A stretch of DNA of 64,000 nt from Picocystis sp. L7 (taxonomy: Eukaryota > Chlorophyta > Picocystophyceae > Picocystales > Picocystaceae): the NCBI GenBank assembly GCA_020975725.1, contig QXJR01000024.1, forward strand, positions 302,535 to 366,534, in the 5' to 3' direction. This document shows positions 6,845-50,314 of this stretch, one piece after another. The first letter of the stretch is position 1, and the number at the start of each line of letters is the position of its first letter. The position numbers were made by a program, and so were the translations under genes. Below the pieces are notes generated by a model. That model ran no database searches. It was not told the origin of the DNA and saw only the letters and a program-made list of their open reading frames with translations.

Positions 6845-6873
6845 AAATATTGTATTGATATCTTACAATATTT
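6845..6873. promoter_or_regulatory. Putative recombinase core site, internal
   Basis: Perfect 10-base inverted arms AAATATTGTA and TACAATATTT around a nine-base spacer TTGATATCT. The layout resembles lox/FRT sites. It sits 110 bases before the recombinase ATG and could also be an autoregulatory binding site. Confidence 0.5.
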
Positions 6874-6982
6874 GATCTCGATCAACGCAGTCGAAAGTAT
6901 CGATGTTCGTCGACAGAGATATCTACCTTTTGTCGACCGTTGGGAGACGTACAACGACGAGCACGGAGGATTGGCAACGACG

Positions 6983-9846: not shown

Positions 9847-12597
9847 TCAGAGCTCCCTCAACCTTTGTTGCTTCTTGGCATTCCAATACAGAGCTTGAGC
9901 GCAAATCAAGGTAACATATCCAACTTGGGAGCTGAACATCATGCTGTTTTGCCGGCACCGAACAGAAGCATTGAATTGCTCACTTAGAGGACCATTGATG
10001 CTTTTGTTGTGTTTGGAATTGTAGTGCTCAGGAGCAGTCGTATGATTTCTGTGGTGCATTTGATCTTGATAGTAGCGAGTCCTCCCGAAAAAGGACGGCT
10101 CACGGAGGCTGGCTGCCAACTCAAGTTCCTTGCCATTGTCATACACAATTTCTTCAGGTGCATGCTGGAAGAAGGCATAGAGGTACTCCACAATCTCAAT
10201 TGTACTCTCCGCATTCTTCTCGTTGATGACATGGAACCCCACAACATTTTCACACCCTCCACAAAGGTAATAAACGAGACCAGGGGTGAAGCTGAAGCTT
10301 CTTGCATGCTCTTTCTCTGGTTCGACCGCACTATCTCTTCCATATTGTCTCGCTGATCTTACCCATCTTTTTCTTGGCCCCATGGCTCCTACCTTTGTCA
10401 TTAAGTGTAGGTTTGAAGTACCCTCAAAAGAGTCCAAGTATGTTGAATGAGACCTACCCTCTCCAGTCTCAACAAGACGCTCTTCAACTGTGCTTCGTTC
10501 TACCCGCAGAAGCAAATACTTTAAGAAGGGGTACAGTTGCTCTTCTTCTGTGAGCTTCATCAGAAATTGCATAGATATACCCAAGAATCTACTGCTTGAA
10601 AAAATTCTAGCAACCAATGGATCCGTGGCCTCGCACATGGACTCCATGGCACAAATTTTCTCCAATATCTTGCGGCAATCTAGAGGTATGAGCGAGTTTA
10701 ATGGGTAATGCGATCCAACGGCCATTCCTAACTCTCTGAGGTCCCTCACTAGGTGCCAAAGGTGAAATTTATCCTCCACAAGGCACCCATCCAAGAGCAA
10801 TATTTGTAGTTGCCAAGGACATTGAAGTCTCAACTCCAAAACATCTCGATGCTCAAGTCCACTAGTCGCAAGCTTCCACAGCAAATCTCTGGCCTTTTTG
10901 TGTAAGTAATTTTGCGTGAATGGCTTCACGAAGGTTGGGTTTCTGCAATTCAACCATGGTTGGTCAAATCTTGCAGCCCGCCTTTTCACGCCTAAAACCA
11001 ACCCATCAATGTGAATTCTTTTGCAATTCTTGTCGTCTTGGCAAACGCATTCAAATGGGCAATACTTGTCTATGTCAATGGATGCTATCAAACCTCGCAT
11101 AGCCTGGCGAAAGCTGTCTCTTGACGCCTTGATCAATAGCCTTGGGTTCAGGCCTGCAGAAGGAGATGAGTATTGACCTTGTCTCACGAGCGTTGTCAAC
11201 AAGCTTATGAACGAATGTTTTGTCTCCGAGAAGGAATTCCAGCAAAGCATTAGGTCACGCACCAAATATACGTACTGATGATAGCTGACACTCTCTCGTG
11301 CACTGCTCTTGGGAACGAAAAACAAGCCACAAGCCCTCGGGTCGCAAGCACATGTAGGACAAACCCGAGCTCCTTGTAGTTGCACAATCCCGTATTGGCT
11401 CACAATTAGAAAATCATTTTTCGGCTCAAAGGATGAGGTTTGGCACCTTGAACAAACGGTTGAGTCCATAACCTCTCCAAAGCAATTGTCCATATTCAAT
11501 GCCAGGGTCTCGCGGTGCTCGCGAATGCTTTCAGCCATAACCCTACTTACTGCTTCTGTTATTTCGTGCATACCAATCGCGACCTCCGTTTGTGTTGAAT
11601 AGAAAAAATTTCCAAGTTGTCTCCTTTTGAAAATCATCTCCAGCTTTGCAAATTGTTCAACTTCATTTGCTCGTGTATCCATCGCAGGATCGTTTGGTTC
11701 ATATGCGCCGTTATCTAGGAGGATGTCTGTGCAACAACGGCTAGCACATTTTGCATGCACACATGTGCTTGTGTGCCTCTTGCAAGTCAAGCAGATCTCT
11801 TGTCCACGTGTCCCATATTGCCTTGTTAGTCCCCAAGCATGTGCGTTCTCTTTCAACCCACAACAAACTGCCTTGAATGCAAGTCCATTCTCCTCTAGCT
11901 CAAACTCGAAAGCAATGCCAGCCATCGTTCTCCATTGCTCTAGATGTGCTTCGTCGATGGTAGACTTGCCCAAAGGTCTAGATGTCATGTCATGCACAAT
12001 ATCTTCTACTTCATCTATTCCTAATCCATCACTAAGCATTGTCATCGCACGTTTGAATGGAATCTCTACGTGAAGAATGCGAGGGAATACGCGCATCAAG
12101 CTCTGGGCACAAGAGCACAATTTCCCGATACCACGGGTCGCCATGTCCATGTGTGCCCAATCGCTTCCCTGACAACCATCAACACTGCAATGGCTCATCA
12201 ACATACCATCTACTTTCTTCAAGCTACACACTCCCATTGGCGACACTGTACGATTGCCCATCAAACCCACCACGACAAACACCACCTCATCCATGCCTCT
12301 ATATATTGTCGCCACACCATTTGTGGAGAGATACGATTGAAAAAAAAGTTGTGGATGCGACCATGCAGTCAAGTCATCCTCCAATTGCACATCAAGAAGC
12401 TCAATACCCACATGTTCATCTCGACTATCACTCTCGTGATCAACCACCAATTGTGTTGGAGTGGATCCTTCGGGCACATCCAAGTCCTTTTTTTCACCTT
12501 GAAGTGCCGGACTCGCATTCTTGGGTCTTTTACTTATATTGACTCTAGCAACATATCTCTTCCTTTGTGACTTCTTGAATCCAAGGTGCTTTGGCAT
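9847..12597 (-). CDS. KDZ-like transposase with cysteine clusters
   Basis: Probable cut-and-paste transposase of the outer element, about 916 residues from ATG 12597 (MPKHLGFKKS). The frame stays open to ATG 12705, whose hydrophobic extension looks less natural. The middle carries several cysteine clusters (CLTCKRHTSTCVHAKC, CSRC, CPTC, CPFECVCQDDKNC) like the CxC modules associated with KDZ transposases. The C-terminal part has the order expected for the RNase H-like core of this group: FTPGLVYYLCGGC, then an acidic VYDNGKE, then RYYQDQMHHRNH, then SEQFNASV. The stop is only 76 bases from the inner end of the left arm, so the gene reads towards that arm. No break is seen. Family assignment rests on recalled motif order, not on a search. 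Confidence 0.7.
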   Translation of the reverse strand: MPKHLGFKKSQRKRYVARVNISKRPKNASPALQGEKKDLDVPEGSTPTQLVVDHESDSRDEHVGIELLDVQLEDDLTAWSHPQLFFQSYLSTNGVATIYRGMDEVVFVVVGLMGNRTVSPMGVCSLKKVDGMLMSHCSVDGCQGSDWAHMDMATRGIGKLCSCAQSLMRVFPRILHVEIPFKRAMTMLSDGLGIDEVEDIVHDMTSRPLGKSTIDEAHLEQWRTMAGIAFEFELEENGLAFKAVCCGLKENAHAWGLTRQYGTRGQEICLTCKRHTSTCVHAKCASRCCTDILLDNGAYEPNDPAMDTRANEVEQFAKLEMIFKRRQLGNFFYSTQTEVAIGMHEITEAVSRVMAESIREHRETLALNMDNCFGEVMDSTVCSRCQTSSFEPKNDFLIVSQYGIVQLQGARVCPTCACDPRACGLFFVPKSSARESVSYHQYVYLVRDLMLCWNSFSETKHSFISLLTTLVRQGQYSSPSAGLNPRLLIKASRDSFRQAMRGLIASIDIDKYCPFECVCQDDKNCKRIHIDGLVLGVKRRAARFDQPWLNCRNPTFVKPFTQNYLHKKARDLLWKLATSGLEHRDVLELRLQCPWQLQILLLDGCLVEDKFHLWHLVRDLRELGMAVGSHYPLNSLIPLDCRKILEKICAMESMCEATDPLVARIFSSSRFLGISMQFLMKLTEEEQLYPFLKYLLLRVERSTVEERLVETGEGRSHSTYLDSFEGTSNLHLMTKVGAMGPRKRWVRSARQYGRDSAVEPEKEHARSFSFTPGLVYYLCGGCENVVGFHVINEKNAESTIEIVEYLYAFFQHAPEEIVYDNGKELELAASLREPSFFGRTRYYQDQMHHRNHTTAPEHYNSKHNKSINGPLSEQFNASVRCRQNSMMFSSQVGYVTLICAQALYWNAKKQQRLREL

Positions 12598-13403
12598 GGT
12601 TGAAGGGTAGGAAGCAAACGTCTCAACCCAAGCAATAACCCCGTTGAAGTAACCTCCTACAACAAAAGAGCAGCCAAGAATTAGTACAACACCACGCTCC
12701 TTCATTGTCAGATCTACCACGCCATCCCCGTCGAATTCTTTTCCGAATACTTTTCAATATTCATGCAACGGACTGGGCAATGTTGACCCCTTCAAGGAAG
12801 GTTACTTCCTCAAGCGCTCATCAACAACCTATGGCGTGCGGCACTCATTTGTCCCGTTCTCTCGTGCAAACTAAGGACACTGTTTGAAACTCCTCGCACT
12901 CACCGTCGTCTGTTCGTCTCAGCGCGGTATTGTGTCCGCCGTCCGCCGCCCGCCGCCCGCCGTCCGCAACCGTTGTTGTGGGACCGGAGCCGGGGTCCCG
13001 AGAGGAAACCAACGCTTTGCTACAGGGGCGGTATCGTCCGTTCGTCGTTCCGAAAGGAGCGGGATCGCCTCGCGTCCACGTCGCGGAAACGTCGACGCAC
13101 GGTGATCTTAGGCGTCGCGATCGAATGGCCTTAGTACAGTAGATCCCGTGGTGTTGTGAACGACGTGACGATGGCGTTTAGGCGCGTCTTCTGATGCGTC
13201 GACATGCTTCTGCACCGACGCATCGGAATCAAAACGACGCGTCGGTGCAGCAGCACGCAATCGTGCACGGAACGAGACGGTCAAGCTCAGGCGAGGTTAT
13301 GTAATGCCACGTAAGAACATTACACAACGTGGTTGGTTGCATACGCCTACGCCCACGGAATGCGTCGACGTCGGGCCGCAGGTACACCGACTCGGACGTG
13401 TCA
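12598..13403. other. Transposon interior without supported gene
   Basis: Region upstream of the transposase, probably its promoter. It contains a 12-pair hairpin, CTGCACCGACGC at 13210-13221 with GCGTCGGTGCAG at 13239-13250, with a 17-base loop. A short stretch of repeated CCGCC/CCGTC units lies near 12940-12965. Confidence 0.5.
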
Positions 13404-26990: not shown

Positions 26991-28220
26991 TTATTCATCC
27001 AGCAATGGCTGGGCAACTCCTTCCTCCACGCCGCTGTCAAGGGAGGTATTTGGCTGAAACTTCTGCCAGGCCTTCAACAATCCTATTGACATAGTTAGTG
27101 CTGCAGCGAACCCAAGTATGAGTGCAAGGGGTGGGAAAAGGAAAGCCAGGCGGACGCTAGCATTTGCTTTCTGCATTTCATATTCTCGCCAACTCCAAAT
27201 GCAAAGGAGAACCAAAAGCTGGGCAAGCAACCCGCCAATGAAGCTGAGAGACATTTGGTAGGAGCTTGCATGATCTTGATCGAGGCCTTTACACCAGCGC
27301 ACCGCCATTTCAGATGCTAAAAGAGCACTTGCAGGTTGTAAGAATATGGCAAATGGCCACCAATGAGCTGCTGCAGTAATGGCTACAAACACTGATGTTG
27401 TCCGGTGCAAGTACGGCCACCAGGCACGTACCCGTTCTGTCTTGCGCCAAGAAAGAGCGGCTTGGATAGTAAAACCAGCTAGGCAAAGAATGCCAAAGGA
27501 GTACAGCAACCCTTCCGGACTCATCAGGAGCTGTAGAAACCCTCCTACATTCTCGTGGTTCCCAAGGAGATAGACAAGTTCTAAAGCCCCATGCAGAATA
27601 GCAAAAAAAAATGCAGACTTGCTGATAAACTTGTGAAGATGTATGGGTCGTAGACCTCCTACAACTCCCAGAATACGTGCAGGGACACTGGATACCAGGA
27701 TTGGCAACAGGGACAGATGCCAGGATAGTGGAAAAGCTGCTGCAAGAGAAATGGCCAACAAGAAATGGTAGGTGGACGTCCAGTAAAACGAACTTCCCAG
27801 AAAGTACACCAAGGGAACCACAAACCACACAAAGGAGGCAACACCCCAAGTCCACTTGTACACATTGCTCAAAGTCATGGATTCGCAGTCCCACTTTTTC
27901 TTTCCTCCCTTTACAAGCGGAAAGAAGGCTAGCAATATGCTTGGCATTATCCAGAAAGCAAGAGTCACCATAGCAAAAGGGGTCAGCCCGAACATGTATC
28001 CTCTGTAGAAGCAATAGTAACCAGCTTCTCCTGCTGGACTCGAGCAGTAGGTCGGATCACCGAGATTCATCAATCCTCCCACACCACCCACACCACCAAC
28101 CCCATATCGAAGTTTCTGTGGAATCTCGAACGATACGAGCAGCCGCAGTGGCTCATACAGCGCTGCCAGTACTAATGGACCCATCAGCCAGGGTGCAGGG
28201 CTGAGTGTTCTCTCTGCCAT
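26991..28220 (-). CDS. Ferric-reductase-like bis-haem membrane protein lacking the flavin domain
   Basis: 409-residue membrane protein with about nine hydrophobic segments. Two helices carry the ferric reductase/NOX haem ligands with exact HX13H spacing: His196 and His210 in HKFISKSAFFFAILH, and His272 and His286 in HRTTSVFVAITAAAH. It therefore should bind two haems across the membrane. It stops after the membrane domain, with no FAD (HPxS) or NAD(P)H module, so it needs another electron donor or works as a cytochrome b561-like shuttle. It is the first gene of the iron cluster and is divergent from the FBP1-like gene, sharing a promoter with three TGTCGACA palindromes. The start ATG at 28220 is followed by a plausible cytosolic N-terminus. 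Confidence 0.87.
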   Translation of the reverse strand: MAERTLSPAPWLMGPLVLAALYEPLRLLVSFEIPQKLRYGVGGVGGVGGLMNLGDPTYCSSPAGEAGYYCFYRGYMFGLTPFAMVTLAFWIMPSILLAFFPLVKGGKKKWDCESMTLSNVYKWTWGVASFVWFVVPLVYFLGSSFYWTSTYHFLLAISLAAAFPLSWHLSLLPILVSSVPARILGVVGGLRPIHLHKFISKSAFFFAILHGALELVYLLGNHENVGGFLQLLMSPEGLLYSFGILCLAGFTIQAALSWRKTERVRAWWPYLHRTTSVFVAITAAAHWWPFAIFLQPASALLASEMAVRWCKGLDQDHASSYQMSLSFIGGLLAQLLVLLCIWSWREYEMQKANASVRLAFLFPPLALILGFAAALTMSIGLLKAWQKFQPNTSLDSGVEEGVAQPLLDE

Positions 28221-29009: not shown

Positions 29010-29155
29010 CATCTCGGAGGACGGTTGGGGGGAAAGAAACCTGGAAGTCGAGGGGACACCCGCTCACCCCAGGACCATCCCATCAATGAACCATGCCATG
29101 GATCATTTGTTGGGGTGCAGGAGAGAGCAGGTGCGCTCCTGTCCGTCCAAGAACC

Positions 29156-31063
29156 ATGCCCACACGACGCGATGCAGGCAAGAAGAACCACCGACCGATC
29201 CAATGGATGTGGATCGTGGCCACCGCTTGCACACTGGCCTGGGGGAACAAGGGAGTCCAGGCCGCCTGCGAACGACCGGTCTCCAATTGTGACCGCAGCA
29301 AAGATTACTTTGATACCAAGATGAAGTTCGACCATGCAGGAAGCGTAAAAAAAATCGAGTATCACAATCACTACGTGACCTTGGATACAGAATGGACAGC
29401 TTGGAGTGGCTTACATGAAGAAAAATATGTGTTCGTCCGCTGTGGTTGCCCGGCGCCTGAACTGAATGGTTACAAGGAGTTCCACGTCCCTGTCGACAGT
29501 GCCTTCCTGCAGGAAACAGTTGTGGTACCCAAAATTCACCTCATTGGACAGAGGCCAAAGTTGGTTGCAGTTGAAACTGGACAATGGATCACCACACCAC
29601 AACTGAGGGATGACATAGAAAATGGAGTCGTCGTCGACATTGAGCGAAACTATACTAAGCTGTACGAATTGCCAGAGGGCATCCCAGATGTTTTGATCAC
29701 CGGGTCCGGGGATTCCAGTGACTGGGAAGGTTGGACAGAGGAGCTCGAAGCGCGGCGAATTTTAGACGCTGATCCTGGGGAGTTGTCCCCTCTTGGGCGT
29801 GCGGAGCTCGTGAAGATCGCAGGTATCCTATTTGGTGCAGAAGATACTGCACAAGCACTGTTTGATCTAATTGTTGCCAGGTATGAAACAGCTAGAGACA
29901 AGGCATTTGCTGCCCGTAAGCGACCTTCTGTGATGCTGGGCCTACCATCCCCAGGCTGGGGCTGGTCGGTAACCAGGGGTAGCTCTTACGTTGGCAGATT
30001 CCTCGCAGATGCTAATGTCGAGTACAAGAATGCAAACGATGAGTTTGAAGTGCCCCAGGAATCCAATGTCATACTAGAAACTTTCAGGGAGTCTCAATAC
30101 TGGATCAACGTTTACGTGAGGACAGACGATCAATCGCCCACCACGATGGAAATGCTGCTGCAGGGCAATAGGACCGAGTCTCCAGGCGGAGATCAGAGCG
30201 TATTTCCACAATTCCGAGCATTCAAATGCGGCAACGTCTTTTCCAACGGAAATGCAGTACAGCGTGGGATGCCTGGTAATCCGTATTGGGAAGAAGGAGT
30301 GCTCCGTCCAGATTTGATCCTGATGGATATGGTGCAGTTGTTCCATCCTGATGTTACCATGTTTGAGCATGAAGCGGAATTTCACTTCTACCACAAGCTT
30401 GCTCCGCTTCCCAATAACGAGAACATGGGCGAGTGCGGTTTGACAACCCTCTCAGCACGTCCAGAAAAGAACGGCATGTATCTTTTTGCCCATTTCTCAA
30501 TGCATGACGTGTCTCAGTATGATTTCTTGGACAATCTTGTGGAGAAAGTGCAACCAGCAATAGCGAACTTTCTTGAGCTGGACATGGAAAAAGTCGAGGC
30601 ATTCGTTTCAAACGATCCAGCACCATCAGCAGATGCATTTACGATCCAGGTGATTGCCGATGTTGGAGAATGTGGGTCCTGTGGGCTGGAAGGTCCAGAG
30701 AGCATGCACTCCAACTGTCAAGACCTAGCGACCCGTTTGAATGACGTTGGAACAGTTGTTTTGAATGCGCTTTCCCATGGAAACACAGGGCCTTCAGTGG
30801 AAAATACTGTACCGGCCCATGCGATGTGCCACGCAGGTGATCCTGTCATGACCTCGGCTTTCGTTCCTGCATCCACCTCTTCTTCCTCGTTGAGTGGCGG
30901 CGCCATCGCTGGTATCGTGGTGGGCTGTGTTGTGGGTGTTGCCGTTCTTATTTTGGTGGCTGTCAAGTTCTCCTACCGCAAGGGTTCAGACGATATGTAC
31001 CAACAGCTCCTTGCACAGCCAGGCCAGGAGATGAGCAAGGGAGCAAACGGTACGCCAATTTGA
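29156..31063 (+). CDS. FBP1-like membrane-anchored siderophore-binding protein
   Basis: Surface protein with an extracellular periplasmic-binding-protein fold of the TroA/FepB iron-complex class, like diatom FBP1, which captures ferric siderophores. 635 residues from ATG 29156. There is a signal peptide (hydrophobic core WMWIVATACTLAW, cleavage likely after VQA near 36). The binding domain spans about residues 40-520 with RPKLVAVETG, PDVLITGSGDSS and PSVMLGLPSPGWGWS. A Ser-rich linker precedes one membrane helix at about 580-605. The cytosolic tail contains DDMYQQLL, where YQQL (615-618) fits a YxxPhi endocytosis signal, consistent with uptake by internalisation. ATG 29093 would add 21 residues in front of the signal and is less likely. 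Confidence 0.85.
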   Translation: MPTRRDAGKKNHRPIQWMWIVATACTLAWGNKGVQAACERPVSNCDRSKDYFDTKMKFDHAGSVKKIEYHNHYVTLDTEWTAWSGLHEEKYVFVRCGCPAPELNGYKEFHVPVDSAFLQETVVVPKIHLIGQRPKLVAVETGQWITTPQLRDDIENGVVVDIERNYTKLYELPEGIPDVLITGSGDSSDWEGWTEELEARRILDADPGELSPLGRAELVKIAGILFGAEDTAQALFDLIVARYETARDKAFAARKRPSVMLGLPSPGWGWSVTRGSSYVGRFLADANVEYKNANDEFEVPQESNVILETFRESQYWINVYVRTDDQSPTTMEMLLQGNRTESPGGDQSVFPQFRAFKCGNVFSNGNAVQRGMPGNPYWEEGVLRPDLILMDMVQLFHPDVTMFEHEAEFHFYHKLAPLPNNENMGECGLTTLSARPEKNGMYLFAHFSMHDVSQYDFLDNLVEKVQPAIANFLELDMEKVEAFVSNDPAPSADAFTIQVIADVGECGSCGLEGPESMHSNCQDLATRLNDVGTVVLNALSHGNTGPSVENTVPAHAMCHAGDPVMTSAFVPASTSSSSLSGGAIAGIVVGCVVGVAVLILVAVKFSYRKGSDDMYQQLLAQPGQEMSKGANGTPI

Positions 31064-32226
31064 GCTCTGCAACCAACCAAATGGAATCTTTAAATTTAAG
31101 TGCATCTTCTAAAACTTTACAAGGCACATTGCCGCAGCTTCAGTCTTTCTACAATGTCACACCGTGAATGGCCATGTTGATGAGCACTTTCACCTTCGTG
31201 CTGGAGAAAAGACTCAAACATTTTGCTCCAGCCGATACCTCTTGCCCCCTCGATGCACCCCACCCTCCTGATCTGCGCAGTACTTCTTGCGAAGGTTGAT
31301 TAGCTGCTGCTGCATGCATGGCGCAGGATTTTCCTTCCATGGCCAACGCATTTTTCTACCGATGGGTGCTTCTGTGCAATTTCCATTGAGAACGGGAAGA
31401 ATGCATTGGTGGGTGTTGTGTGATTAGCCTTTCTGTCTCGAAGGGAAGTGGAAGCTATCAAGGAACCTTGAAGAAAAACAGCAAAAGGAGTTGCCGGAGC
31501 AAATTCAGAGACACGGTTGCAGCACACGCACCCTATCTACGGCCGCACAGGAATGGGTGCTTGAGATTCTACTTTATGTCAATGCAATAAGATGCTGGTT
31601 TGTCCATGACATGACCAGTTATGTCTCTCCCGGTCGACAACTTGCGCCCGACATTTCGATTGGAGGGCACAGGTCAGGAGATCACCGGTGCGGGATTGTT
31701 CTTTTGTAAAGAATTGGATGCATTTGAGGAGTCACCAACACAGTTTGTCGTGGTTTTGGAGCGTTTCGGGCGGTCTCTCGGTCGTTCGTCGAGTCGGGCC
31801 ACGACAGGCGCAGTGGATGTACAATCTCTACACCGGTTCACTGCTAAAGTGCATCGGAATTTCATCCCAGGAAGCGAGCGTTCAACGACCGGAGCTGCCC
31901 TTGTCTACCTCGTGCATCCTTGTCACTACTGGAATTCAATTGGGATTTTCGACGATCCCTTTCGCCTTCCATCTCTTCGGATGCCATGCCTTGTTGTTGA
32001 CGTTGGAACGATGGGCTCTCGGGAGGACCCATTCGCATCCCAGTCTTGAATCTTTCCGTTTTCTTCGTTCAACCATCCCAAGGATGGATACGCCTGCTTG
32101 TCCATGCTGGTCCAGGTGGATCCCAGACCATGGGCATCCCCGAGGGGAAGACCGGACGGGTCCGACGTTCGTCCGCCCCTGTGGCACCCCGCGCCCTGGG
32201 CGGAGGCGGGTGTGGGGGCCGAAGGG
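31064..32226. other. Intergenic region upstream of the selenoprotein gene
   Basis: 3' flank of the FBP1-like gene and upstream region of the hemerythrin selenoprotein gene. A 142-codon frame at 31621-32049 has no recognisable features and I do not call it. Confidence 0.5.
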
Positions 32227-32296
32227 TGTCGACATCGGGGCGGTCCTTCGAGTGGGTGGGATCGAGCTCGGGATCGAGGGTTGAGAGATGTCGACA
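32227..32296. promoter_or_regulatory. Two TGTCGACA palindromes upstream of the selenoprotein gene
   Basis: Exact copies at 32227-32234 and 32289-32296; the second extends to the 10-base palindrome ATGTCGACAT. Both lie within 150 bases of the proposed start codon at 32372. Confidence 0.65.
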
Positions 32297-32371
32297 TCCA
32301 GGGTCGAACCAGCAGGGAAACGCGATCGTCCTGGTGACACAACTACACCACCACGTGCTCGTGGTCCCGCC

Positions 32372-33238
32372 ATGGACATCCGCTTTCGAAGGCTGGTGGA
32401 CGGCGAACGTGGAGGCGTCACCAGTGCAAGCACATTGGCCCAGACGCAGGGCATGCCGGTGGTGCTGCATCTCTACAACAACAACTGAGGAGGATGCCGG
32501 CCATGTGCACATCAGATGGACAACTGGTCGTGCACGTGGCTGGCCGAACACGTGGTCTTCGCCTGCGCCAGCACGGCTGGAGCGGAGGTCGCGATGCTCT
32601 TCGCCGAAGAATTCGGATTCGAGAACGTCGTCAACGGGTACGCCGAATCGGAAAGGGACATCCCTTTCGGTCAGCTGGGATGCTCGGGACTCATCGTGTT
32701 CGATGCCGCTGGACGTCTGCTCGTGCGAGCCTTCACACCCACGTACCTGGAAGCAAGGCACAAGTCCTTCCGGATGTTCGAGCAATGGATGAAGCAGACC
32801 TTTCGATTGAGCGCGCCAGATCGAAACAAGGGACCGAAAGCATGCCTCCGGCCTGCACCAGAAGTCCACGAGAAGAAAGCAGAAGAAACAACAACAGGGA
32901 AGCTAATCCAGTTGGGAATCCGAGAGCTGGACGAAGAGCATGAAGAATGTGATGTGGTGCTTCAGCAGCTGCTGTCTGCACCAACGCTTGGGACACTTCG
33001 CGCGTTCCTCCAACTACTTCAAAAGCACTTTGCCCATGAAGAGGAAATACTGGCCGCTCATCCCTCTATGCCAGATCGCGCTTTGGCATCGCACAAGGAA
33101 GATCACCGACAGATGTTGAAAAGTTTGCAGAATGCCTTGGACGATGGACTTACAAGTGAATTCCTGGACGAAATCAAGGAACGCTTCTTTTCCCACATAG
33201 AGTTGTTTGATATGCAATATGCGAAGATGGTAGCTTGA
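32372..33238 (+). CDS. Selenoprotein: Sec-thioredoxin-like domain fused to hemerythrin
   Basis: 288 residues with TGA at 32486-32488 read as selenocysteine 39. The N-terminal domain is thioredoxin-like: MPVVLHLYNNN, then Sec-GGCRPC (Sec39, Cys42, Cys45), then a later strand GLIVFDAAGRLLVRAF. The C-terminal domain has every ligand of a diiron hemerythrin with canonical spacing: His190, His219 and Glu223 (HFAHE), His241 and His245 (HKEDH), His275 and Asp280 (HIELFD). A SECIS-like hairpin follows the stop. It may combine redox chemistry with iron or O2 sensing, as hemerythrin domains do in FBXL5 and BTS/HRZ. Start ATG 32372; another ATG lies at 32288. If TGA were a true stop, a 240-residue protein could start at 32516, but that would discard half the thioredoxin fold. 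Confidence 0.8.
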
Positions 33239-33266
33239 GTCGAGAATATATTGGATCACGCAAGAC

Positions 33267-33336
33267 AGGACGGTTTGAGTGATATGCGCAGGTTAAAGCC
33301 AAGGAAGCCAGCGCATTGAAGTAGGTGACCGGTCCT
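33267..33336 (+). promoter_or_regulatory. SECIS element
   Basis: Begins 29 bases after the stop. Helix I: AGGAC/GGT (33267-33274) with ACC/GTCCT (33328-33336, one bulge). The quartet is TGAT at 33280-33283 and TGA at 33317-33319. Helix II: ATGCGC (33284-33289) with GCGCAT (33311-33316), an A-A mismatch, then GGTT with AAGCC (one bulge). The apical loop opens with AAA (33295-33297), 11 bases after the quartet, within the 10-13 usual for eukaryotic SECIS. The base before the quartet is G rather than A. Confidence 0.78.
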
Positions 33337-34248
33337 ACGCTGATCAACAAGTAAATACATCCGAAAGCACAGTACTTTTTACACGTGTTCATAGCCGGTA
33401 GGAGTGTTGGTAGGGCAGGGTTGCGCTAGATAGTGCACCTCATAGAGAAATAGTAGGATTGGAGTGTAGGCAGTGTTTCACATGCGCCCACTTCTTCTTC
33501 CCATTGTGCAATGTTCCTTGCAGCTGTGTCGCACGTCCTCACTCCCGGATTCACGTGCAGTCTAGTACTGACGGTTCTCGGGCATTTCCCAAAGGAAAAG
33601 CCAATGCACCAAGATCACCCGCTGACCAAAAGTTAGAATTATGTACTTGCTCTCTGACTGTATTACCGAGCGAGCACGTCTCCATGGCTTGCAGCAAGAA
33701 GTAGCTTGTCAAAGGACATGAGAGCGTTGTCAAAATCAAAAGCATGAACGGTGGTCATCGGGGCCACTGACAAAGTGGGGCAGTGGAAGAAACATGCAGA
33801 TATGATGCGCTTTGGTAGCTTTCAAGGATGGACTGGAAGAATCTAGCAGCCGGTGGATTATCCTGGCGATGCTCTAGATGAAGAAAATGACTGGTGGTTC
33901 ATCATTGTGTTCAAGTCAGCATCCCTGAGTAGACATTCGAGATCCAGCCTTGAGCACTGGACATTGGTCTTTGGTGCCCAGGAACGAAAAACCCACTTCT
34001 TCCTAGTTCATTGCTTGAGTGTTTGTCAATACCGTTCAGGGCAGTTGATTCTACAGCAAGCTCAGAAGGGAAACTTCTAGATCGATCTCCAGCGAGTTTG
34101 CGCCTTCTCTTGGGTCTCTGCGCATCCATCAGTAGGTTTATCGTGGGAAGCTGTGAGCGGCGTACTGTGGTTCTGAAGGAGAGATGCAAGTGCACTTGCC
34201 AAGGGTATTCGTGATCTACTGCAGAGGCAGAGAAAAGCATCGACAAAT
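33337..34248. other. Intergenic region between convergent genes
   Basis: 3' flanks of the selenoprotein and ferric reductase genes. Short open frames only, no supported gene. Confidence 0.5.
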
Positions 34249-36429
34249 TCAGGGTAGAGTACGACAAACAAATTGAATGTCTTGGCGACGCGTTCCTTGC
34301 ACAATCGTGTACACGTCTTCAGACAAACCTCGTGGCCCGCAAACATGAACTTCGCTGATATGGGTCATGCTTCCAGCAAGTAAATCTCCAAGGCGAGAAC
34401 GGCCATGGATGAACCTAATCGCACTCTGGTCTCCTAGCTTCTCCTGGTCAATATGATTATCCTCAAGGAGGACATTGCCCTCCTGAAAAGGATCACCCTG
34501 CAAGTCGAGATACCTTCTCTTGATTGCGAGCCCCCCCCAGGCCCCGAAGGCTACTGCTGCACAGACGGAAGAGATGAGAGGAAGAGCTCGAAATGCGAGC
34601 CAGCATGACCAAATTCTACAACAACCGACCGCTGGACATACACTGCAAAACTCTGTCTTCCACATAAACCTGCAACTCGTGCCTTCCTCTCCAGCACTCC
34701 GGCATGAAACAAGCCGTGCCGCAATAAATCCTACGACACTTCCAACAAAGGTGATAAATGTCATGAGCCCCTTAGAGAAATTCTGTTTGGCCTGGGACAG
34801 TCTGGCATCACGTGCCCGAACTTGCTGTGTGTTTCTGTTTGGGAGGGTGCTATATTCGTCCTTTTGTTCACCTAGGCATAGAATGGATGCTGGGTTCACT
34901 TTGTCTTTCAGGAGCGCGGAACACCTAATGTTTACCGTAACCGTTGCTCCATTTCTTGATGCATACTGAAGTAAGAGGTCAAAGCGAGCGTATTCCTGCT
35001 GAGACTTCACGAGCCACAGTATGCTCAGCTGTTCACCCTTTCCTGAAGAGCAAGATTCATAAATGGAAGCGGAAAATGCTGCAAGGCCACTTCCACCTGC
35101 TACAATGAGAACATCTTGCAGACCGCCAATAAGCACCTCAGGTTGACCGAATGGCCCCCTTATGAGTGCCGCCCCTGATTGTTCAGCAGTCATTAAGCTT
35201 GTGTGATGCAGTATAGCTCGAGTCCAATCTCCCCTCTCAAACACAGCCACTTCAAATCCGTCGTCATTCATTGCAGAGACTGAAAGAGGATGAAACTGAT
35301 CAGAAATTGCAGGAACCTTAAGCTCTATTGACTGGCCAGCTTGTGGTACGATATACGGACTGGTCAAGAAGCGAAGCTTGAAACGTCCCTCTTTGTTTTG
35401 GTACACCCTTACATGGTCCTGTAGAACAAACCTGATGTACAAAACGTCTGAGATCAAAAGTACAATACCAGCATGGGCGTAGTGAAAGGTCTCATAGTCA
35501 TGGAGCTGTGCACAGAGAAGAAAGCCAGCAGATGAGAAGTGAAAAATCTGGAAGCGCTCGTAGTGCTTTCTCCTCACCTCGTCAGCAGAAGACATGGACA
35601 GAATCAAGAGAAAAATATACGAAACCAAACCGGAGAAGTTCACCACAGCCCCCGTGTATCTGGAAGACAAGTTGAAGAGATGACTCCACAGAGTGGACAT
35701 TGAGACACTCAGCCAGAGAACAGGAGGGAGGAGGGAGTGCAACGAAGCCCAAAACACGAGTTGCTTGCCAGCAAACTGATGCAGATACCTCACCAACGTG
35801 TACGGGTAGCCTGTCAGCAAGTATAAAATACCGCAACGATCGGCACTCAAGCAAACAAATGCAAGATTCAACAAGGTTGGCCAGCTAGCAACTACTGCAG
35901 CTCCATACAGCAATCGCCGGGCAGTCAACCACAAGTCCTTGCTCGCCTGATCGGTTAACCACTGGGGTCCGTCTCGGTGGAGCGCCTCATACCGAATGAA
36001 GTACATAAGAAACCATCCCCAGCTCAGCACGAGCGAAGCACACTTCACTAACCTTACACTTTTCACGGTGTCTCTGAATTCCTGTGGTTTTCTCTTCCAT
36101 CGTACATCAAAAGCCGCAGCTACGTATCCCGCACAGGTCAGGAACAACGCCGCAGCGAAGGATAGCAGGGCCGCTCGGCCTAGGCAGAGATATGGTATGT
36201 CGGTGGCGTAGAGCCTCGTCCACGCTTTGGGCAGATAGAATCGGCCAAGGGGATAGAACAGCATGGCCAATGCAGAAATCCATGCCCAACCCTGCACCAA
36301 GGTCCATTTGCTCTGGACCAGAGGGACAGTACAGCCGATGAAGTCATTAATCAATCCCTTCACTAGGGCCTTGGCTCTCTCGTGCCATTCGCTCTCTTGC
36401 TGGAGATTGCTGGATCCCAGAAGCTCCAT
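34249..36429 (-). CDS. Ferric reductase of the FRE family
   Basis: Moves electrons from NADPH through FAD and two haems across a membrane to ferric iron or ferric chelates. 726 residues. The membrane domain has His217 and His231 (HX13H) and His297 and His310. The flavin motif is HPLS at 380-383. The nicotinamide motifs are GPFG (425-428), AGGSG (444-448) and a C-terminal VCGP. Between the nucleotide motifs and VCGP two extra hydrophobic segments interrupt the domain (FITFVGSVVGFIAARL and a second near SSVCAAVAFGAWGGLAI), an insertion I also recall from some fungal and algal FRE proteins. It is divergent from the permuted binding-protein gene and shares a promoter with three TGTCGACA sites. 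ATG 36429 gives a clean start. Confidence 0.93.
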   Translation of the reverse strand: MELLGSSNLQQESEWHERAKALVKGLINDFIGCTVPLVQSKWTLVQGWAWISALAMLFYPLGRFYLPKAWTRLYATDIPYLCLGRAALLSFAAALFLTCAGYVAAAFDVRWKRKPQEFRDTVKSVRLVKCASLVLSWGWFLMYFIRYEALHRDGPQWLTDQASKDLWLTARRLLYGAAVVASWPTLLNLAFVCLSADRCGILYLLTGYPYTLVRYLHQFAGKQLVFWASLHSLLPPVLWLSVSMSTLWSHLFNLSSRYTGAVVNFSGLVSYIFLLILSMSSADEVRRKHYERFQIFHFSSAGFLLCAQLHDYETFHYAHAGIVLLISDVLYIRFVLQDHVRVYQNKEGRFKLRFLTSPYIVPQAGQSIELKVPAISDQFHPLSVSAMNDDGFEVAVFERGDWTRAILHHTSLMTAEQSGAALIRGPFGQPEVLIGGLQDVLIVAGGSGLAAFSASIYESCSSGKGEQLSILWLVKSQQEYARFDLLLQYASRNGATVTVNIRCSALLKDKVNPASILCLGEQKDEYSTLPNRNTQQVRARDARLSQAKQNFSKGLMTFITFVGSVVGFIAARLVSCRSAGEEGTSCRFMWKTEFCSVCPAVGCCRIWSCWLAFRALPLISSVCAAVAFGAWGGLAIKRRYLDLQGDPFQEGNVLLEDNHIDQEKLGDQSAIRFIHGRSRLGDLLAGSMTHISEVHVCGPRGLSEDVYTIVQGTRRQDIQFVCRTLP

Positions 36430-37133: not shown

Positions 37134-37253
37134 TGACGATTCATTCCACTCCGGTGGACAACCGACGAACACCTCAAGGTGCCCTTCCTGCCCAAGGGAA
37201 GAAAACAAAGCTACCGTGGCTTGCCTGAAACATCTGAGATCCTCAAGAGCAGC

Positions 37254-40200
37254 ATGAGTTCAAGGAGCAATGGGACGAATGGCACGATGGGCGCGATATT
37301 CTGGACTCTTCTCTCCTGCATGATCACAAGCACCACCGCCTTGGGAAGAATAGAGGTGGACTTCGTGTTCCTCGAAGATCATCCCTTCCAAAAGAGCATG
37401 GAGGAAGGAATCCGAAAAGACCTTGCCGCTTTTGGGGTCATCGTACAAGCCAGGCCTCTGGACAAGGAAAGGCTCAACGAAGCAATGCAGACTGGAGACT
37501 TTCACATGGCCTTCACAGAAAGTTGGGGGCCACCCTACGATCCACATTCCTATGTGGCTTCATTCCGAGTGGCCGATGAAGCTGGGCTTGCAGCCACCTC
37601 GGGCATGAGAGAGCCCATGACCAAAGGAAGGCTAGACGAAACCATCACACATGTGCTCAAAGAAGAAAACGTCACCGCTCGAACCCAGCTTTGGGAACAC
37701 ATCCTCGAGTCCCTGCACGATCAAGCTATATTTTTGCCGATATCATATCATCGCAATCCTGCAGTTTTCAACAACAGACTCGAAGGATTTGCCTTCGGAC
37801 ACCAGCAATTTGATTACCCGATGGAGCAGATCACTGCAAGATTTGGCAGCCAAGTTGCCCTAGTGTCTCCCGGAGCTCAGACCGGGCTGTTCAGGGATGT
37901 TGGCTTCATGCATCCCCACGCCTACAGGCCAAACGAATTCTTTGCAAACAATTGGGTGTACGAAGGGCTTGTAGCCTACGGTGCTGACGGTACCATTATG
38001 CCCGCCCTGGCAGAGAACTGGGAGATAACGGATAGCGAAGGCGGCGAGAGAATTCGGTTCCAGCTTCGTCGGAACGCGACCTTTCACGATGGCTCTCCTT
38101 GGAATGCGGAAGCCGCCAAGCTGAACTTTGATCATGTTCTTGCTGGGCCGCTGACCGGTGGTGATTTCCATGGCTGGTATGAGCTCCCAGCCCAAATTGA
38201 CCGATGGGAGGCGGTCGACGAGCACACATTCGATATCTTTACTAGAGGAGCCTACTATCCATTGCTGCAAGAGTTGAGTTATATACGACCCTTGAGAATG
38301 CTGTCTCCTGGTGCGTTCAAAGGCACCTCGCCCTTTGAACAGAATTCTTGTCCAGAGAATTGGGGCAATGTGGAAGAAGACGGTGTTACAGTTAACTGCG
38401 CAGGAATTGTTGGAGCGTCAGGAACAGGTCCCTGGAAGTTTGCAGAGAAAGTCACGAACAAGCGCGTGCTGGATGAAAAAGAAGTGGTGTCCACAGTGCT
38501 GGATCAAGACGAAGTGGTGACTGAAGTGAAGTTTGTGAGGAATCTTGATCACTGGAACCTTCCTAGCAATTTTGAAGGTGGCAGCTACATCACAGAGCTG
38601 GTGGTCAAGTCTTTCGATGACCACAATGCAGTCCTAGATGCTTTGCTGTCGGGTAATCTCGATATCGCTGTTGGGGGCGGTCCCCTCCAAGCCGATGCAT
38701 TAAAGAGGATAGAAGCAGATCACGGCAACCTGATGACGGTCATGTTTTCACCACCGTTGAACACCAGGCTGATTGCGTTGAACTCGATGAAAGCGCCTCT
38801 GGATTCTGAAGAGATACGGAAACTTATTGTCCACGGCGTCAACAAGCAAGAAATCATTGAAGAGAGCCTGGGTGGGTTGGAGGAGAAGGCCCGAACCATT
38901 TTCCCAACCGACTTGCCTTATACAAACGTGACGTTGCTGCCCGTGATGGATTACGACCCAGAAAAAGCTTTCATGATAAGGCACCATGGCTTGGTGACGC
39001 TTGATCCCCGCAATGACACTGGGGTGCGTGAAGTAGGGATTAAAAACTGCGGGTTACGCTACTGGTCTCGAAGTGTACCAAGGAGAGCGGTCACGCTCAA
39101 TCAAGGAGCCACAGAGATTATGCTTGCCCTGGGCCTGTCAGGAAACATGGCTGGCACAGCTTATATCGATGACAATATATGGGAGGAGTACCAGTCGGAT
39201 TATCTTTCAGTCCCTATCCTAGCACCCAGATACCCGGATATCGATACCCTCTGGGGCGCCCAGCCAGACTTCTTGTACGGGTCCTATGGTAGTGCGTTTT
39301 CAGACAGAAGCATCAACTACTCAGATGTGATCGGACCGTGCACGGTTGCTCAAGAAGGGCAGCATGTCGACTCGCAAGATGACTGGAGTTCCTGCCGAGG
39401 GAAGCTCCACAATGTTGGTGTCCTCACGTACCTCCAAGAGCCATATTGCGAGACGAACCAGCACAGACCCGAGAAAACCACCGTGCAGACGCTATTCGCG
39501 GAGATATGGGAAATCGCCAACATTTTTGATGTGATCGAGAATGGGCGCATCTTGATCAACTCCATCGTGCAGCACTTTACAGATGCACAAGCAGTTCAGG
39601 TATCTGCTGGCCCAGATCTTCCTGACCTTGATCTATTCTGGCTGGATTCATGGAGCGAAACCGAACCCTTTGTAGGTGCATGCTGTGGTTCCGTTAACTT
39701 GATAATTGAAAATTCTGGTGCTCACAACATATTCGATGACCTTGGTGTTGATACGCAAAGATCCTGGATGGCAGTGCCATGGGAGGAAGCTATAGAGAAG
39801 GACCCCGACATCATTGTGTTGGTCGATGCTGTTTGGGATACGGCAGACTCAAAACTCCTCAACCTGTGCAACACGACAGAAACTCGAGCAATGCGTGCTG
39901 TACAGAACAGGCAATTCATAGTAGTTCCATTCAGTGGGACAACGCTTGGAGTGAGAATTGGGGCAGTTGCCTACAACCTTGCAGAAGCAATGGTTGCATT
40001 AGCAAGAGGAGTACCTCTTCAGGAAGTTGACTTCCAGGCAGTAGAAACGAACAACGCTAACGGATTCTTGAGTTCAAGCGGCGTTTTCGTCTACAGAAAC
40101 CTGCCTGAGGTAGAAGGCGTTGATTTGGATACGTTTTGCCCAGGCACAAACATGATCACAGCCAATGAACCAGCTAATGAAGGATCAAGCTCCCTATCGG

Positions 40201-40400
40201 GTGGAGCTGTTGCTGGCATCGTCATTGGATGTGTCGTTGCTCTTGCTATTGCAGTAGTGGCCATTCTGTACGTGCATAGAAGGCTCCCAAAAGACGGAGG
40301 AAAGGGAAAGGCTTCCCTCACAACCATGGAACGTGCATTTGGCAACGACAACCTCACTGGCAGGCCTACACTAATGACTGACGGTGCAATCTCAACATGA
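37254..40400 (+). CDS. Membrane-anchored fusion of circularly permuted NikA-type and FecB-type binding domains
   Basis: 1048-residue surface protein. A signal peptide (core MGAIFWTLLSCMITSTTA) is followed at once by what is normally the C-terminal lobe of a NikA/oligopeptide-binding protein (about 33-195; WGPPYDPHSY matches the NikA signature). Next come the normal N-terminal lobe (about 205-430; NWVYEGLVAYGADG, TFHDGSPWNAEAA) and middle part to about 580. A FecB/TroA-type iron-complex domain runs from about 605 to 960 (RAVTLNQGATEIMLALGL, AYIDDNIWEEY). A membrane helix lies at about 982-1008, with a Lys-rich tail. The linker SSSLSGGAVAGIVIGCVV closely matches that of the FBP1-like protein, so the two share an anchor by descent. 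Likely binds a ferric or other metal chelate. The frame opens upstream only at a GTG. Confidence 0.87.
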   Translation: MSSRSNGTNGTMGAIFWTLLSCMITSTTALGRIEVDFVFLEDHPFQKSMEEGIRKDLAAFGVIVQARPLDKERLNEAMQTGDFHMAFTESWGPPYDPHSYVASFRVADEAGLAATSGMREPMTKGRLDETITHVLKEENVTARTQLWEHILESLHDQAIFLPISYHRNPAVFNNRLEGFAFGHQQFDYPMEQITARFGSQVALVSPGAQTGLFRDVGFMHPHAYRPNEFFANNWVYEGLVAYGADGTIMPALAENWEITDSEGGERIRFQLRRNATFHDGSPWNAEAAKLNFDHVLAGPLTGGDFHGWYELPAQIDRWEAVDEHTFDIFTRGAYYPLLQELSYIRPLRMLSPGAFKGTSPFEQNSCPENWGNVEEDGVTVNCAGIVGASGTGPWKFAEKVTNKRVLDEKEVVSTVLDQDEVVTEVKFVRNLDHWNLPSNFEGGSYITELVVKSFDDHNAVLDALLSGNLDIAVGGGPLQADALKRIEADHGNLMTVMFSPPLNTRLIALNSMKAPLDSEEIRKLIVHGVNKQEIIEESLGGLEEKARTIFPTDLPYTNVTLLPVMDYDPEKAFMIRHHGLVTLDPRNDTGVREVGIKNCGLRYWSRSVPRRAVTLNQGATEIMLALGLSGNMAGTAYIDDNIWEEYQSDYLSVPILAPRYPDIDTLWGAQPDFLYGSYGSAFSDRSINYSDVIGPCTVAQEGQHVDSQDDWSSCRGKLHNVGVLTYLQEPYCETNQHRPEKTTVQTLFAEIWEIANIFDVIENGRILINSIVQHFTDAQAVQVSAGPDLPDLDLFWLDSWSETEPFVGACCGSVNLIIENSGAHNIFDDLGVDTQRSWMAVPWEEAIEKDPDIIVLVDAVWDTADSKLLNLCNTTETRAMRAVQNRQFIVVPFSGTTLGVRIGAVAYNLAEAMVALARGVPLQEVDFQAVETNNANGFLSSSGVFVYRNLPEVEGVDLDTFCPGTNMITANEPANEGSSSLSGGAVAGIVIGCVVALAIAVVAILYVHRRLPKDGGKGKASLTTMERAFGNDNLTGRPTLMTDGAIST

Positions 40401-48523: not shown

Positions 48524-49885
48524 AATGTTCACCAGGAAGGGATGCTCTTTGGTCCGTGACCCAAGCACCAGTTCTACAGGAGGATTGGCGACCACTGTCC
48601 CCCTTTGGATCTTGGCATGGAGAAGGCTTGCCTGGCTTTTCCCATTGAATGGCTCGACCGCCTGCAGTGCAGGCGTGGCGAATTCCTTGGGCCGCTAAAC
48701 ACGTATCCCCTGTTGTGCTCTTTTTTGCACATCCGCTGTCAACAGCAGCCACGAAAAGAAACGGGCCATCCTTGACGTGGTCCCGCGGTGGCCCCCTGCA
48801 CAGGTCTCAGATCCGTGGTTGAAGCTTTTCAGCCGCATGAAATTCAGCCCCTTGAGCCACAGTCAATGTGCACTGGATCAATGATGACCAAAGAGTGTTA
48901 CCAATGGGTACACCAGATCGGGGGTTTACTCCCCCTGTGAGCAATGGAACGTCCACGAGCAACAAGTCTAGCCAGCGGTTGGTGCGAATCCGTCGGTTGG
49001 CACGCTTCCGTCACGCCCGGCTGGGGCACCGACTCGAAGGTGGGCGCGAGGAGTGCAGTCGCACCTGATCTCATGCCCTCCACCATGAATAAAACGTGTG
49101 CACTGTTTCGTCGTAACGCAGGTTCTATGCTCAGACAGGGTCATCGTTGTGTCTGTCCTGAACGATGAAGCTCTTGTCGAACGACAATCAGGATCAGAGC
49201 CAGCTGGATGCCGCCGACATTGTTCGTCGTGGACCGGTCCTAAACCCATTAGTGCCGATTCGCCAGAGCTGCAGTTTCATCCGCCAGCGGCTGGCTGCGA
49301 AGTTTCGCCTTGCTGGTGAGAATCCCGTGGTGCTCTGCAGCAATATTGGAGTATGAAGAGAGCGGGCATGCCTTGATCGAAGCTCCCTTGTTGCCCGTGC
49401 GTCAGGGCCGGCAAGCATGCGTTTTGAAGACAGCAGCATGCGGACAGGACCGTCCAGGCATGGGCTGCATCGGGCGGGTTGGTCTCAGCGATGTCCTGCA
49501 GATGTCGCATAGGAGGGGAGGCGTGGCTCTTTCATTTTCCGCGACATATCGCTCCTGGTCCATTGTTTTTCATGTTCTGCTGTTGGTTGTTGAAGCTTGC
49601 GATTTGGGTATGGTTCCCTTTTTGTGAGACAAGGGAGGAGCAGGATGCACCCCGTTTGAGGGATGTCTCCATCCTTCTGGTTGGTTCTTGGGCGTGGTGA
49701 TCTGGCATGAAAGGATGCAGCATGGAGATCCCTCGCGCATGCCCCCACGTGTGGGATCAGTAGTGGGAACCCACACGTAATGGTGGTAATGGTGGACCAT
49801 CCGTTTTGTGTGTGTGCAAGATGCCTTTCATGGTCCTCCCTGGTGCTGGACTCCCCCATCGCTTCCGTCGAGAAGAAACTCCCTT
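48524..49885. other. Intergenic region
   Basis: 1.4 kb with no supported gene, leading into the minisatellite. Confidence 0.5.
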
Positions 49886-50250
49886 CCCTTTCGAATCCTT
49901 CCTTCCTTCCCTTTCGAATCCTTTCTTCCCTTTCGAACCCGTCCTTCCTTCCCTTTCGAATCCTTCCTTTCTTCCCTTTCGAATCCTTCCTTTCTTCCCT
50001 TTCGAATCCTTCCTTTCTTCCCTTTCGAATCCTTCCTTCCTTCCCTTTCGAATCCTTTCTTCCCTTTCGAACCCGTCCTTCCTTCCCTTTCGAATCCTTC
50101 CTTTCTTCCCTTTCGAATCCTTCCTTTCTTCCCTTTCGAATCCTTCCTTCCCTTTCGAATCCTTCCTTCCCTTTCGAACCCGTCCTTGATTCCCTTTCGA
50201 ATCCTTCCTTCCTTCCCTTTCGAATCCTTCCTTCCTTCCCTTTCGAATCC
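49886..50250 (+). repeat. Minisatellite of about 17 CCCTTTCGAA units
   Basis: Seventeen copies of a 19-23-base unit beginning CCCTTTCGAAYCC and ending in TTCCTT/TTTCTT variants. Four-unit blocks are themselves repeated, so it grew by block duplication. It ends 64 bases before the cyclase ATG and so is in the promoter or 5' UTR. Open frames that run through it are artefacts of its composition. Confidence 0.9.
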
Positions 50251-50314
50251 GGTTTCGCGTGTTCGCGACGCGCATCGCGTCTGTCGCGCGCATTTCCTCT
50301 TGTTGTTTTCGGCC

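Follow-up and report, generated by a model that had tools for sequence, protein, structure and literature searches.

Does the TGA triplet in an otherwise open frame of this alga end translation or is it read as selenocysteine (Sec), and what would a selenol do in the same chain as a hemerythrin domain? The frame in question lies in the window, i.e. the whole stretch of 64 kb that was analysed, and comprises the following features:

32372..33238, plus strand: predicted selenoprotein gene of 288 codons, the 39th being TGA; the coordinates include the terminal stop TGA (33236-33238)
32486..32488, plus strand: in-frame TGA, predicted Sec39 of a U-G-G-C motif, aligned with the first Cys of the thioredoxin CGPC
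32288..32371, plus strand: possible extension by 28 codons if translation began at an upstream in-frame ATG, which lies in an intergenic repeat motif and is the less likely of the two starts
32372..32812, plus strand: thioredoxin-like domain (TlpA/ResA-type fold), residues 1-147
32672..32689, plus strand: QLGCSG motif, residues 101-106, just before strand 107-110
32915..33229, plus strand: hemerythrin domain, residues 182-286, a four-helix bundle with seven predicted diiron ligands
33267..33336, plus strand: SECIS-like element with helix I, GTGA/TGAA quartet, helix II and apical AAAGCC, its core at 33279-33319

The preliminary description had claimed a single in-frame TGA in a frame otherwise open for 288 codons, and this was confirmed: the triplet at 32486-32488 is codon 39 and the frame closes with the TGA at 33236-33238. 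Translation of 32372-33238 gives NNN-U-GGCRPC around codon 39, and the GC contents at the three codon positions are similar before the triplet (codons 1-38, 0.61/0.42/0.76) and behind it (codons 40-170, 0.61/0.48/0.69). Since the second in-frame ATG, at 32288, sits within an intergenic repeat motif, 32372 is the likelier, though not a certain, start codon. The repeat covers 32207-32298 just 5' of the gene, has the ends GTGTCGACATC/ATGTCGACATC and contains the upstream ATG inside one copy. In the host genome (20.5 Mb, 30 contigs), the Sec/hemerythrin gene was found once by protein search; the light-harvesting-protein matches in this genome number 18, from which we take its owner to be a photosynthetic eukaryote.

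A SECIS element with both helices, quartet and apical adenosines had been claimed to start 29 bases after the stop. Folding and our own scanner both confirmed a SECIS-like hairpin at 33267-33336, the core of which begins 41 bases 3' of the stop codon. In the minimum-energy fold of 33264-33336, helices I and II are separated by an internal loop and capped by an apical loop that opens with AAA; the z is -2.57, and 3 of 200 shuffles fold equally well. With more flank included (33239-33360), z is no better than -1.08, and 27 of 200 shuffles are equally good. Because the scanner, the patterns of which follow the SECIS literature, was written after the candidate had been seen, its figures are supportive and not independent. 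The element scored 43, compared to 41-49 for native glutathione peroxidase (GPx) SECIS elements, and came first of 19 on the plus strand of the 64-kb window. On both strands it ranks third, tied with the second, as one minus-strand stretch scores 50 and another 43. The stretch with a score of 50 (about 2650-2684 in plus coordinates) lies in the 3'-terminal part of frame 2634-3905 on the minus strand, a frame that we take to resemble ATP-sulfurylase. After dinucleotide shuffling of the 400 bases behind the stop, 4 of 2000 sequences reached a score of 43.

The native GPx elements of L008, L009 and L011 carry ATGA, AAAGC and TGAA/TGAT in the corresponding places, and the window element differs from these three by GTGA, combined with TGAA, instead of ATGA. 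The Rfam model SECIS_1 gave no match in the window at the gathering score, nor at E up to 10 in stretches of 2001 or 122 bases. This miss says little, since all five native candidates were likewise below threshold or unmatched: L008 reached 30.1 bits and L013 26.1 bits against a gathering score of 35, L011 reached 22.0 bits only if the 122-base stretch was supplied, and L009 and L014 remained unmatched. The assignment for L014 is itself weak, with a fold z of 0.22. A covariance model planned from the native elements was dropped, since MAFFT misplaced the core of the window element, L014 and part of the 3' cores. By our scanner and by folding, the 3' UTR contains a SECIS-like element.

The genome also has genes for Sec decoding. 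One of five matches to tRNA-Sec lies above the gathering score (76.2 bits compared to 47), SepSecS was found with 377.5 bits, and for eEFSec both eukaryote-specific domains (PF21208 and PF21131) were above cut-off. Four of six GPx matches contain TGA, in three frames within SEUGLT and in one minus-strand frame within ASEUPLQ, and two of three Rdx-family matches have CxxU. As a control, in-frame TGA was found in none of 40 thioredoxin-family and none of three MsrA matches of the same genome; one of the 40 holds a TAG.

Several of these genes show features of their own. The four GPx genes L007, L008, L009 and L011 stand in tandem (G000:C15:307697-313359); Sec occurs in three of them (SEUGLT) and Cys in the remaining one (SECGFT), possibly reflecting a Sec/Cys switch within one cluster. 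The Rdx-family frames L013 and L014 contain CVRU and CGAU, and a SECIS-like element is strong for L013 and doubtful for L014. For the minus-strand GPx frame L012 (G000:C5:627338-627622; ASEUPLQ), no SECIS was found by our scanner in the flank after the stop.

For comparison with other organisms, three protein searches gave 10, 41 and 132 matches, the second scoring only the 7999 candidates that share most words and the third contributing by the best 120 of its 132; altogether, 148 distinct proteins are listed. Aligned to the window protein, 109 of these 148 have their first residue precisely opposite Met49, which is the next Met behind codon 39; 29 start later, 7 reach position 39 and 3 are other cases. 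P0040 and P0046 precede the Met49 equivalent by one or two residues. This pattern could be explained by a true stop at codon 39 with a truncated protein starting from Met49, and the preliminary description had named homologues that all begin after the TGA as evidence against its own reading. Literally, this holds for 138 of the 148 listed homologues, but the entries that read further are conserved upstream: in an N-terminal alignment of four rows S18, V31, H33 and Y35 are invariant, followed by GGCRPCA.QM. Gene callers that stop at TGA would yield just such a set of starts. Furthermore, a protein beginning at Met49 would be without its active-site motif and without the strand that opens the thioredoxin fold, and the SECIS-like element and the Sec machinery would be left unaccounted for, which makes a true stop very improbable. 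The in-frame TGA, with an open and conserved frame on both sides, is as expected of a eukaryotic selenoprotein gene, and the 138 entries seem to be misannotated, starting after the Sec codon and lacking the active site.

An alternation of Sec and Cys at position 39, proposed earlier as a check, did not appear: the six listed homologues that reach this position with related sequence comprise five with W and one with Leu, and none with Cys. The W precedes GGCRPC in P0005, P0006, P0020, P0043 and P0097; the Leu occurs in P0044, a degenerate-looking relative. P0132 (F) and P0014 (E) have unrelated upstream sequence. As printed in the databases, the W could be a real tryptophan encoded by TGG, the TGA of the window then being a sequencing error or a changed codon. 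This is hardly credible, because a tryptophan would displace the attacking Cys of the thioredoxin motif. Since W makes no catalytic sense at this position, it more plausibly arises from TGA translated as W by a gene caller using code 4. The same is indicated by a second W in P0006, which shares 223 of the 248 residues of its close relative P0009 (Chaetoceros debilis) and has W exactly where P0009 ends; P0006 was thus most likely translated with TGA as Trp. It has to be considered that TGA in the homologues was deduced from W and from ORF ends in proteins and not read from DNA. Profile A3 picked out 27 pattern stretches in viral contigs and 13 in genome contigs, with no relative among them, and the exact back-translated motif had 0 matches in the viral and 0 in the genome contigs. 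Altogether, Sec is very probably inserted at codon 39.

A profile of the N-terminal domain matched thioredoxins with an E of 3.3e-5, and in this match the two Cys of CGPC correspond to position 39 and Cys42, in that order. In the predicted structure UGGC lies at a helix start within a thioredoxin fold, as in TlpA/ResA-type proteins with a CxxC-type motif. Cys104 is Cys in all 149 aligned rows (window protein and 148 listed homologues), with the string QLGC in 148 of them. A crude hydropathy test, for which the uncertain start codon has to be kept in mind, showed no signal peptide or anchor at the N terminus, the highest 19-residue window starting at residue 60. The predicted structure covers the folds of both domains, with low confidence for the linker at about 156-174; with a pTM of 0.60, it is uncertain how the two domains sit relative to each other.

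The C-terminal part is a hemerythrin domain. PF01814 matches residues 182-286 with 31.0 bits (cut-off 25.3), and the four-helix bundle presents the ligand set H, H, E, H, H, H, D, predicted as H190, H219, E223, H241, H245, H275 and D280. The canonical spacing claimed for these seven ligands was borne out, as the distances of 29, 4, 18, 4, 30 and 5 are near those of myohemerythrin, which are 29, 4, 15, 4, 29 and 5. One helical turn after H190, Cys193 is Cys in 123 of the 149 rows, with 16 gaps. The hemerythrin fold was recovered by VIA-align and by sequence searches and is absent among the 50 matches listed by Foldseek, which contain the thioredoxin part only. Frame, motif, seven ligands and SECIS-like hairpin together agree with the selenoprotein first proposed, in which a Sec-thioredoxin-like domain is fused to a complete hemerythrin domain.

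The statement that no described protein has this pair of domains, by contrast, fails. Jiang et al. 2020 (PMC7539508) mention, in one sentence of section 11 and with no mechanism given there, that a hemerythrin (metal-binding) domain was found in the algal TlpA selenoprotein. The window protein resembles it by description, having a Sec-containing thioredoxin-like domain and a hemerythrin domain in an alga. Sections 5, 10, 11 and 22 of that article contain no mention of a second Sec site or of a mechanism for TlpA. While the sections consulted give 80% of TlpA members as Sec-containing, implying about 20% non-Sec forms (PMC7539508), the homologues listed here comprise one Leu form and no Cys form. 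The window gene is a further member of an already mentioned, barely described domain pairing, likened to it by description and not by sequence. Another protein close to it by description is the thioredoxin-like selenoprotein of the diatom Thalassiosira pseudonana (Lobanov et al. 2007, PMC2375036), likewise a Sec-containing thioredoxin-like protein, for which the portion of the article consulted mentions no hemerythrin.

Compared to ResA/DsbE/TlpA oxidoreductases, the window protein has Sec in place of the first Cys, a fused hemerythrin domain, Cys104 in the loop before strand 107-110, and no N-terminal hydrophobic stretch. Unlike in myohemerythrin and the bacteriohemerythrin DcrH-Hr, the hemerythrin is fused to a Sec domain, and the loop between helices C and D has a Cys/stop site in many homologues.

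Among the 149 rows, 34 have both ligands of helix D, 90 have H245 but not these two, and 25 have neither. Of the 90 loop-ended rows, 82 have a Cys between H245 and the end of the tail (10 residues or fewer from the end in 78) and 8 have none; one of these 8, P0121, ends early. Since helix D supplies two of the seven iron ligands, a functional protein should continue past the C-D loop. The six named homologues, all of them loop-ended, are Chaetoceros debilis, Amphora coffeaeformis, Nitzschia inconspicua, Thalassiosira exigua, Odontella aurita and Epithemia clementina; four of these species names were checked as diatoms, and the other two we presume to be diatoms as well. P0005, P0006 and P0020, with W at position 39, continue through helix D and have a W in the C-D loop too. 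P0017, P0039 and P0040 show W at other places of the C-D stretch. As these three start at Met49 or one residue before, TGA was probably treated as a stop in their translation, and the W they show is likely to be a genuine residue. The loop contains two Cys in P0016 and three in P0116; both W and Cys are missing from it in 16 of the 34 rows that have helix D. The window gene and its relatives P0002-P0004 have a short C-D loop with no Cys and no stop.

An intron at this site is less likely, since the MMETSP complete transcript ORFs P0051, P0066, P0091, P0100 and P0123 also end there and the frame of P0006 continues across it. Against a second Sec speak the 8 tails lacking a Cys, the 16 helix-D rows with neither residue in the loop, and contig truncation, which may account for part of the loop ends. 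Judged from the protein ends, a second Sec in the loop-ended homologues is quite probable, and the 90 of 149 rows seem to be misannotated at this end as well, stopping before two iron ligands. A second Sec site in this family was not found described in the literature searched, most subscription journals being outside its scope. More tentatively, and at slightly less than even odds, the family would be a selenium-wired diiron redox protein in which the first Sec, the pair of loop Cys and second Sec, and the diiron centre form one relay; the 90 rows would have the second Sec, and the alga of the window a one-Sec form that never had it or has lost it.

For the window protein itself, the following course is assumed. 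The UGA at codon 39 would be read as Sec via the SECIS element, tRNA-Sec, SepSecS and eEFSec, as supported by sequence and comparison. Sec39 would then occupy the position of the attacking Cys of thioredoxin with Cys42 as its resolving partner, for which alignment and model speak, and by analogy with the thioredoxin fold the invariant Cys104 would be located near Sec39. The hemerythrin domain would bind a diiron centre at which O2 or H2O2 reacts, by analogy with the BRUTUS domains as treated in the consulted part of PMC12022348. The selenol/thiol pair and the diiron centre would be coupled, so that the Sec domain keeps the iron reduced or handles peroxide made by the iron, perhaps in iron-limited cells. 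In many homologues (the named ones diatoms), electrons would pass from domain to domain via the apparent second Cys/Sec pair of the C-D loop, a pair that is absent in the alga of the window. We thus favour, with a probability of roughly 0.5, a Sec-thiol oxidoreductase with a coupled diiron site, acting as a thiol-dependent reductase of peroxide or O2 or as a redox relay.

It is also conceivable that the protein is an ordinary Sec thiol-disulfide oxidoreductase, the hemerythrin domain of which only stores, delivers or repairs iron (e.g. loading or Fe-S repair) with no electron transfer between the domains. FetE of Campylobacter jejuni, a thioredoxin oxidoreductase that is associated with the membrane and has a role in iron uptake, is among the fold neighbours, and a profile search matched the iron-sulfur repair protein YtfE. 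Since the YtfE match is weak (E 0.17), and both Cys193 and the Cys/stop pattern of the C-D loop suggest redox coupling, such a division of labour is considered unlikely.

The place of the gene among siderophore-binding and ferric-reductase genes, as claimed at the outset, leads to a further possibility. Neighbours of the iron-uptake type were indeed seen, partly by matches below threshold:

37179-40400: frame with SBP_bac_5 and Peripla_BP_2, both above the Pfam cut-off
34249-36429, minus strand: Ferric_reduct frame above cut-off, its FAD and NAD domains narrowly missing theirs
29093-31063 and 26991-28220, minus strand: Peripla_BP_2 / Ferric_reduct matches, below cut-off only

Judged by these predicted domains, the iron context of the gene is real, yet it rests partly on sub-threshold matches. 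Two further long frames of the window, at 6872-9130 (plus) and 9847-12720 (minus), appear to be a tyrosine-recombinase type, as assumed by eye, and presumably a Cys-rich transposase-like gene, and repeats at 49800-50300 code for FPFESFL-like units that are open in more than one frame. For comparison, FRE2 and FBP1 of Phaeodactylum are a divergent, iron-responsive pair, the synteny of which, according to the part of the source used, was not seen in the few other diatom genomes considered there (PMC6876252).

In this setting the protein could be an iron or O2 sensor, in which the occupancy or redox state of the diiron centre alters the Sec active site and thereby signals to a regulator of iron uptake. 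The ferric-reductase-like and siderophore-binding-like neighbours would fit this function, and the hemerythrin domains of plant BRUTUS are proposed as iron sensors (PMC12022348, as far as consulted). The window protein shares with BRUTUS/BTSL a hemerythrin domain in a photosynthetic eukaryote, but according to the same part of that source these sensors have three hemerythrin-like domains and an E3 ligase output, whereas the window protein has one such domain and a redox domain. None of the output domains of a BRUTUS/FBXL5-like ubiquitin ligase passes the Pfam cut-off in the window protein, in which only PF01814 does, and PF01814 is the sole family at E 0.01 in the 42 members of profile A3. A better BRUTUS-like candidate is present in the genome, namely a single frame, open over 1269 codons, in which hemerythrin is matched three times (L016-L018, G000:C20:128227-130335). 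The architecture of this frame is, in our view, reminiscent of BRUTUS-type iron sensors. As the gene neighbourhood of one alga is weak evidence, a sensor function appears rather unlikely, and the coupled oxidoreductase remains the preferred reading.

Iron often limits the growth of algae. A selenol and a non-haem diiron centre in one chain would be an unusual coupling of selenium chemistry to O2, peroxide and iron, and a correction of the entries that seem to be misannotated would make the protein accessible to ordinary biochemistry.
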